From Robiginitomaculum antarcticum DSM 21748 (GTDB taxonomy: Bacteria; Pseudomonadota; Alphaproteobacteria; Caulobacterales; Maricaulaceae): a stretch of DNA of 64,000 bases. Position numbers and translations under genes: made by a program. Below the pieces are notes generated by a model. That model did not search any database. It was not told where the DNA came from and was given only the letters and a program-made list of their open reading frames with translations. Location: the NCBI RefSeq assembly GCF_000365025.1, contig NZ_KB823013.1:124001-188000 (forward strand). The letters run 5' to 3'. Below, one piece after another: positions 10,010 to 57,834 of this stretch (its first letter is position 1; every line of letters starts with the position of its first letter).

Positions 10010-10063
10010 AGTGGTGGGTTAAATTTTATATCTCAATAATTTATCTCTTATTTTCGGTGTTAA

Positions 10064-10389
10064 AGAAGGGCGTCCGTGCGGGCTTTTGGTAAACAGGTGT
10101 ACCTGAGCTAAAAATGTAGTTTCGTTTATCAAATTCCCTGCGTCCCTTATGGCTGTGACCCCATAAGTTTCACATGCGCCTATTTCACAAAGACGCAGCA
10201 CGGCGACATTTCTGCCAGCGGCCATCGGCGAGGGTTCGTCGCCATAGCTCTCACTGGCGGGGCTTCTCGCGACACGTTTTGCCGCGAATCCTCCCATGCC
10301 GCCTTATCTCCAGCCAGCCAACGATCACTTGCCTGCCCCGTGAGATAAGAACAGTTTGAATATAGATCAGGTTTGAAAGGCGGGGATGA
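10064..10389 (+). repeat. Dispersed ~330-bp intergenic element, copy A
   Basis: This segment is clearly homologous to 57503-57834, in the same orientation. Exact shared blocks include TTCACAAAGACGCAGCAC (10184-10201), GCGGCCATCGGC near 10219, AGCCAGCCAACG (10312-10323) and TGAGATAAGAACAGTTTGAA (10341-10360). Between the blocks the copies differ by substitutions and 1-2 base indels. Short frames exist on both strands, but indels change frame between the copies, so it does not behave like a protein gene. Copy A lies between the 3' ends of two convergent genes. With the REP-like pair and the terminator it accounts for most of the gap 9734-10449; I see nothing else there. Function is unknown: a decayed mobile element or a structured RNA/DNA element. 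Confidence 0.75.
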
Positions 10390-10449
10390 GTCTTTTGAAA
10401 TGCGCGGTCTTATGGGGGATTACTGCATATGGCAGTGTGGTTTCGCAGC

Positions 10450-57502: not shown

Positions 57503-57834
57503 AGGAGGGCTGTCTGTGCGGGACGTTGGTAAACAGGGTGACCTTTGGTTCGCGTTAGTATGTTTCGTCTATCAATTTCCCTGCCGTCCCTGCGCGTGTG
57601 ACTTCGCAGTTTCGACATGCGCCTTTTTTCACAAAGACGCAGCACAGCAGTGATGCTGCGAGCGGCCATCGGCTGAGGGTTAGTCGCCATAGCGCTCACT
57701 CGCGGGCCTCTATGCGTTACGTAAGGCGCACGTCATCCCAACACCGCCCTATCCCCAGCCAGCCAACGTACGCTTGCCTGCCCAATGAGATAAGAACAGT
57801 TTGAAGATAGGGCAGGATTCAGGGGTGGGGATGA
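57503..57834 (+). repeat. Dispersed ~330-bp intergenic element, copy B
   Basis: Homologue of 10064-10389 in the same orientation. Shared exact blocks: TTCACAAAGACGCAGCAC (57628-57645), GCGGCCATCGGC near 57662, AGCCAGCCAACG (57757-57768) and TGAGATAAGAACAGTTTGAA (57786-57805). GCCTGCCC just before the last block can pair with GGGCAGG just after it, enclosing the conserved 20-mer in a hairpin loop; in copy A that pairing is only partly kept. As with copy A, it lies between convergent gene ends (AT-rich lipoprotein, purK). It fills most of the 499-bp gap 57419-57917; the remainder shows nothing I can support. Confidence 0.75.

Follow-up and report, generated by a model that had tools for sequence, protein, structure and literature searches.

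Two stretches of a 64,000-nucleotide segment of the Robiginitomaculum antarcticum DSM 21748 genome (the window) belong to a family of folded RNAs, about 290–300 nt long, that seems not to have been described before. The 2.77-Mb genome (G000) carries about 33 copies, and on balance we favour, with reservations, the view that they are small-RNA genes of a family that disperses as a non-autonomous unit and undergoes gene conversion. The family appears to be new, as judged from Rfam 15 and from a literature search conducted mostly without subscription papers; no description of this RNA was found in Rfam 15 or in the accessible passages of PMC2864571, PMC8632094 and PMC11109978.

BLASTN of positions 10050–10400 of the window against the genome returned a second copy at exactly 57503–57834 (C3:181503–181834). 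This copy (copy B) matches copy A, at 10064–10389, with 76% identity over 326 bases (E = 3e-52), far above chance. The two similar segments described in an earlier sequence-only reading are therefore real, and the blocks it listed as shared lie where it placed them: an 18-mer, a 20-mer and a 12-mer, the last as part of a longer block. The one-base indels between the copies were also confirmed. Its count of two was too low, however, and the search of the genome and its relatives that it had recommended found further copies in both. BLASTN and a core pattern gave 16 class-A copies, including the window pair, spread over four of the five contigs. Some weaker BLASTN matches covered the promoter side only and turned out to be diverged class-B copies, a class that a box search enlarged to 16 in total; one diverged copy in C2 near 49,460 (L023/L151) constitutes class C. 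At about 350 bp apiece, the copies occupy roughly 0.4% of the genome. A tail-only remnant (L020, G000:C3:421332), with a promoter side and no RNA body, lies 1.9 kb from a full class-B copy.

Folding energy and wobble-pair asymmetry assign the RNA to the window's minus strand. With RNAalifold, 29 class-A sequences with flanks gave −131 kcal/mol on the minus strand versus −91 kcal/mol on the plus strand, and nine class-B/C sequences gave −132 versus −114 kcal/mol. The minus-strand fold contained 411 G–U cells versus 88 A–C cells, a count to be read with the fold itself having been derived on that strand. The plus strand had been our first assumption and was overturned by folding both strands. 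With the RNA strand reversed, the supposed variable 3′ tail is the promoter side, and we no longer regard the sequence flanked by AATATA and GGGGAT as guide-like, because it is what separates the −10-like part of the box from the −35-like part.

The case for an RNA rests on comparison and not on energy, because in single-sequence folding copy A folds better than its shuffles (z = −3.04) and copy B does not (z = −0.82). In a 56-pair structure scored over 25 class-A sequences, 96.8% of cells were paired, versus 85.9% in shuffled alignments and 33–46% when the structure was slid by 1–3 columns. Pairs changed on both sides numbered 27 versus 19.5 in shuffles, and the covariation score was 0.415 versus 0.204. 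For four of five measures none of 500 shuffles reached the observed value; for the fifth, further pair types (66 versus 61.0), 6 of 500 did. Single pairs show up to five pair types (columns 71–89: CG, GC, UA, GU and UG). These counts cover 25 of 31 distinct class-A sequences, with L011–L016 omitted as one near-duplicate and five members of a diverged central-arm subtype. The alignments were made without L101, L112, L124 and L130 (cut, interrupted or aberrant); alignment A2 holds 39 of 41 listed loci (L119 and L121 omitted), and class-B alignment A4, in which rows L225 and L245 are misoriented and some rows cut, was kept out of the counts. By these comparative measures the family is a structured RNA of about 290–300 nt, with covariation beyond the controls. 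Open frames of 70–145 codons overlap some copies, and their strand and place differ among copies. The strong covariation and these shifting frames bear out the proposal that selection acts on RNA or DNA structure and not on protein; the interpretation given by the sequence-only reading is thus supported, with the RNA strand corrected to minus.

Copy A is a class-A structured RNA of about 290 nt at 10062–10355 on the minus strand, placed by BLAST family, alignment and covariation. Its putative ends, predicted from the sequence, lie near 10352–10355 (5′) and 10062–10068 (3′). Upstream, at 10359–10387 (G000:C3:134359-134387), is a promoter-like box, ATCCCCGCC-N14-TATATT, with its −35-like part at 10379–10387 and its −10-like part at 10359–10364, 23 nt from the near-invariant core CAGGCAAGTGATCGTTGGCTGG (10314–10335). 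This core is the loop of hairpin P2 and lies next to the 5′ strand of a proposed pseudoknot, P0. Copy B, placed by BLAST, alignment and covariation, is a class-A RNA of about 295 nt at 57503–57797, likewise on the minus strand, with its box, ATCCCCACC-N14-TATCTT, at 57804–57832 (G000:C3:181804-181832) and its core, CAGGCAAGCGTACGTTGGCTGG, at 57759–57780 by the core pattern.

Read along the minus strand, the box is followed by UGUUCUUAUC, the 5′ strand of P2, a 5′ hairpin with a near-invariant loop, GGGCAGGCAAGNGNNCGUUGGCUGGCUGG (GGGCAGGCAAGNGNNCGUUGGCUGG). Next come a short hairpin, P3, with AACG in its loop in most copies, and a branched arm, P4. A 3′ domain is closed by GCCGUGC pairing with GCACGGAC near the 3′ end, and encloses hairpins that vary and an arm bearing the sequences CGAAAC and GGUA. 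The RNA ends in G[CU]CC, and a T-rich stretch follows. P0 can form when the terminal G[CU]CC pairs with GGGNC in the P2 loop (for example, GGGAC/GUCCC, GGGGC/GCCCC and AGGGC/GCCCU); among 42 readable copies, 34 have five of five pairs and eight have four of five. The mean of 4.81 pairs compares with 4.56 for shuffled partners (maximum 4.74 in 1000 shuffles), and these counts support, and do not prove, a pseudoknot between the 3′ terminus and the P2 loop, because the search pattern itself demands G[CU]CC at that end. The invariance of the P2 loop suggests that it is likely to be the binding site of a partner. The 20-mer stretch corresponds to the promoter-like or start region plus the 5′ strand of P2 of this opposite-strand RNA; the short hairpin previously suggested there (CCTGCCC/GGGCAGG) is possible in copy B and is not kept in copy A.

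Some members carry further inverted sequence around this body. In three class-A copies from the congener G003 and a matching named metagenome-assembled genome (L101, L124 and L226), the −10-like box is separated from the RNA body by an imperfect palindrome, about 90 nt long (ATTTTGGTCGGTCGG ... CCGGCCAACCAAAAT). Class-B copies such as L149, L150, L257, L259 and L260 have, downstream of the RNA end, a second conserved hairpin, GTGGTCACCCGATGGGCCATCGC or GTGACGACCCGATGCGTCAT, which in L149/L150 is near the sharp end of the duplicated unit.

The promoter-like box is tied closely to the RNA. The strict pattern ATCCC[CT][AG]CC-N12-17-TATNTT had 32 matches in G000, eight in the carrier G002 and six in G003, and the reversed pattern had one, zero and zero. 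RNA copies account for 30 of 32, seven of eight and six of six matches, respectively (43 of 46 overall); the three away from copies (L227, L236 and L231) look like chance. With a looser box, all 16 class-A copies have the −10-like part at a distance of 23 nt from the core; the box is the strict one in 14 of them and altered in L136 and L141. The sequence-only reading had raised the option of a decaying element; the class-A copies are not visibly decaying, all 16 keeping the core and its distance to the box. In class B the box lies 52–54 nt from a class-B landmark in 16 of 16 copies, although the presence of a box in every one is partly circular because all 16 were found via the promoter side.

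The −10-like part fits the sigma-70 type and the −35-like part is unlike TTGACA; a simple sigma-70 consensus scan called no promoter at either window box, and the same scan called no classical terminator at the 3′ end of copy A or B. A regulator or an unusual sigma factor may read ATCCCC, and the unit is predicted to be transcribed from its own box as a free-standing RNA. Inspection by eye of several class-A and class-B copies showed a pair of inverted half-sites upstream of the box, GTGGATA and ATCCCC, with GGAT and ATCC about 12 bp apart; a regulator replacing a −35 box could bind here. At a locus in another family of the order (L066, in G045), 22 bp are identical to promoter-side sequence of copy B, with GGTGGGGATGAATTTGTTTT there; the locus is possibly a distant relative or possibly shares just the box.

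Across a collection of 84,980 species, the core pattern occurred in 46 contigs. Forty-four were titled Robiginitomaculum, Hellea, Caulobacterales or Alphaproteobacteria, and Hellea balneolensis DSM 19091 is among the carriers; the remaining two (L096 and L117) have only the 22-mer, with unrelated flanks. In the NCBI taxonomy, Hellea and Robiginitomaculum belong to the Robiginitomaculaceae, Maricaulales. A class-A covariance model of the 5′ part (R1) matched at least 25 of 137 genomes from the same family as the window; the matching genomes represent six genera and have up to 18 matches each. The model's structure is the P2 hairpin alone (17 pairs) and its filters are strict, so that 25 is not a full count. 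Two of these 25 (G072 and G074) have weak matches (E about 0.003). The class-A model found none in the congeners G001, G004 and G005, whose assemblies are incomplete or fragmented (G004 67% and G005 75% complete). Plasmids and phages had no match with copy B as query, and the core pattern was absent from viral contigs.

The class-A copies sit among unrelated genes. Both window copies lie in gaps between convergent genes, of 716 and 499 bp, as the sequence-only reading had it; this setting is not general, the flanking open reading frames of the 16 class-A copies being convergent, divergent or tandem. We scanned 28 proteins around class-A copies and in the window against Pfam: four had no match and the rest shared no common theme, the neighbours including exonuclease VII, PurD, primase, YqeY, LptD, a pyrophosphatase, glutathione synthetase and Hsp20. 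REP-like palindromes were about nine times denser at 150–550 bp around the 16 class-A copies (L133–L148) than farther out in the same loci (1.0 versus 0.12 per kb); they occur near six of the 16, and the densities pool coding and intergenic DNA.

One locus records the gain of a unit. The xseA–purD gap of G000 is 562 bp and contains a copy; in 11 of 11 checkable relatives the gap is about 35–137 bp, measured from alignment ends, and the core is absent. We searched 14 relatives, of which 13 gave purD and 11 had both genes on the stretch compared; the 11 empty sites include the congeners G001, G004 and G005 and five genomes that have the RNA elsewhere, and the carriers G002 and G003 are not among the genomes checked. 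Comparison of these loci shows that one unit was gained at this single site. The dnaG–yqeY locus gives no filled/empty evidence, because in only three of 12 matched relatives does the stretch compared include dnaG beside yqeY. Two class-B copies delimit a unit more exactly: they share 374 bp at 99.7% identity with sharp ends (TAAAACCGC ... GGCGC[T/A]TGG). Inspection by eye of this one pair, the sharpest, showed neither terminal inverted repeats nor the target-site duplication that the sequence-only reading had proposed looking for. Other copy pairs have 201–471 bp in common at 90% or more; the 100% pair L145-/L261- is a single locus taken twice. Site gain at one locus, together with block exchange, agrees with the earlier suggestion of a non-coding mobile element.

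Most class-A copies resemble others of the same genome more than copies in congeners. Fourteen of the 16 class-A copies are nearest to another copy of the same genome (up to 99%) and not to any of 15 congener copies, whose best match does not exceed 82%; the exceptions, L008 and L009, are marginally nearer a congener's copy than any own copy. The resemblance is blockwise. L139 matches L134 at 99% over 278 bp and then drops to about 55–82%, and its promoter side is in common with L143; copy B of the window has only its promoter and 5′ block in common with L145. These alignments show the copies to be mosaics of each other, with near-identical blocks that end abruptly.

Four copies (L133, L135, L140 and L147, the first being window copy A) clearly have a neighbouring gene in common with a copy in a congener, and at these loci the same-place copy ranks 11th, 11th, 6th and 2nd of 19 in similarity, gaps ignored. 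Shared place therefore does not mean closest kin. In this ranking L141/L124 has no row (RNA cut short) and L136/L111 is compared over 205 columns only; the ranks of L146/L106 and L144/L088 say little because their immediate neighbour is not shared. The four shared loci point to long residence, which counts against the dispersing reading. They may be old insertions homogenized by gene conversion, or the same gaps may have been refilled; the first is simpler.

Searches for known families and for a mover covered RNA models and protein profiles. Rfam 15 had zero matches in the window at the gathering threshold and, to E 10 around the two copies, only sub-threshold ones (best E 0.45 and 0.11), which agrees with the statement of the sequence-only reading that no known RNA was recognizable. 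Nine related loci had four Rfam matches to E 1, one a tRNA and three sub-threshold, none on the RNA stretch. HEARO (RF02033) exceeded the cut-off in zero of 37 genomes and had no match at E ≤ 1 in G000, with one of 14 controls matching and none over the cut-off. The IscB N-terminal domain (RRXRR) was found in zero of 37 genomes, G000 included, a result to be read with a silent control. The TnpB zinc ribbon (PF07282) was absent from G000 and gave one weak sub-cut-off match in 23 genomes (control matches 6 of 14), and no IscB or TnpB domain was found among the 28 neighbour proteins, four of which had no Pfam match. Reverse transcriptase (PF00078) was absent from G000, G002 and G003 and present in eight of 23 genomes, carriers and non-carriers alike. 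The Y1 transposase (PF01797) was likewise absent from G000, G002 and G003, with matches in five of 23 genomes overall (control matches 5 of 14). Profile and model searches thus did not support an association with HEARO/IscB, TnpB, reverse transcriptase or RAYT. Because none of the four protein families searched (reverse transcriptase, Y1, TnpB and IscB), which usually partner large mobile RNAs, was found in G000, the mover, if any, would be of another kind.

Because a site was gained, copies have exchanged blocks and the occurrence is patchy, we consider a dispersing unit more probable than a small-RNA gene family that stays in place. In the reading that we prefer, the unit would consist of the promoter-like box and the minus-strand RNA of 290–300 nt transcribed from it; it would spread as non-autonomous DNA of roughly 370–480 bp that depends on a trans-acting factor for its movement, and its copies would be homogenized by gene conversion. 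The fold may be needed for the spread of the unit itself; alternatively, it may act in trans for the host, by way of a protein binding at the invariant loop. A bolder version, which we offer tentatively and rate well below an even chance, is a bacterial counterpart of SINEs: a promoter-carrying, protein-less mobile RNA gene in about 33 copies and two main classes, spread by a trans factor that recognizes the folded RNA or DNA and homogenized by gene conversion. Multicopy small RNAs of the Qrr or Yfr2 type are the model for a host multigene family with one regulator and no mobility of its own, arisen by ordinary duplication and kept for dosage or target variety. We regard such a family as rather doubtful here. 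It stays alive because copies sit at shared loci (four clearly neighbour the same gene as a copy in a congener) and no tested mobility protein was found in G000, and the single distance between core and box in 16 of 16 class-A copies fits it as well; against it speak the copy number of about 33, the placement of class-A copies among unrelated genes in all orientations, the gain at xseA–purD, three congener assemblies, incomplete or fragmented, with no class-A model match, and the one unit pair with sharp ends.

The remaining explanations have little in their favour. A conserved DNA element (a MITE, recombination site or REP-type site) with hairpins formed as single-stranded DNA and no RNA role would account for the dispersal and for REP-like palindromes concentrated near class-A copies, yet wobble pairs and folding energy are strand-asymmetric, the box lies upstream on the same strand at a fixed distance, and the sharpest pair has neither inverted termini nor a target-site duplication; we consider it improbable. 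Only a slim chance attaches to a stand-alone guide RNA of a transposon-derived RNA-guided nuclease of the OMEGA type (IscB/HEARO or TnpB): the large, probably pseudoknotted RNA and its many intergenic copies without an open reading frame recall such guides, but HEARO passed the cut-off in none of 37 genomes (nor in any control), the IscB domain in none of 37 (control silent) and the TnpB zinc ribbon in none of 23 with a good control, and the 28 neighbour proteins have neither domain. That the copies are remnants of a protein-coding or intron-type element is barely credible, as the overlapping frames of 70–145 codons that might suggest it differ in strand and place, the window copies differ by one-base indels, G000 has no reverse transcriptase, no Rfam intron matched, and the covariation speaks against it.

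Large structured RNAs without an assigned function are few, and HEARO, GOLLD and OLE opened new biochemistry, including RNA-guided nucleases. With the family described here, the existence in bacteria of mobile RNA genes that carry a promoter becomes a testable question. The genome holds about 33 copies, the promoter-like box is fixed, natural variation is ample for structural work, a carrier strain is known by name, and the alignment is ready for partner searches. Of the mobility or guide proteins, four families were tested and none was detected in G000.

Known systems resemble the family in part. The multicopy small-RNA families Qrr, Yfr2 and alpha-r15 have several copies with conserved promoters; unlike them, this family has more copies (about 33), is longer (300 nt), and shows block exchange and site gain. 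REP elements with their RAYT (Y1) transposase are dispersed intergenic palindromes. Our family is dispersed too, with REP-like sequences near six of 16 class-A copies, but its unit is much longer, with several domains and a promoter-like box, and G000 has no Y1 transposase. The omega RNA of HEARO/IscB is a large structured RNA with many copies that have no open reading frame, a description that also fits this family, whereas in G000 neither an RF02033 match nor an IscB domain (control silent) was found. In the accessible passages of a 50-genome survey of non-coding RNAs, the mobile or repeat candidate MRSC-65-2 consists of a single long stem, occurs across diverse phyla and in some cases lies near a transposase gene (PMC11109978). 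Like such candidates, our family is a structured motif with many copies per genome and inconsistent neighbour orientation, features that are read there as selfish (PMC11109978). Unlike MRSC-65-2 as those passages describe it, it has no tested transposase found with it, has been seen in one bacterial family, and consists of a 300-nt multi-domain RNA together with a promoter-like box (PMC11109978).
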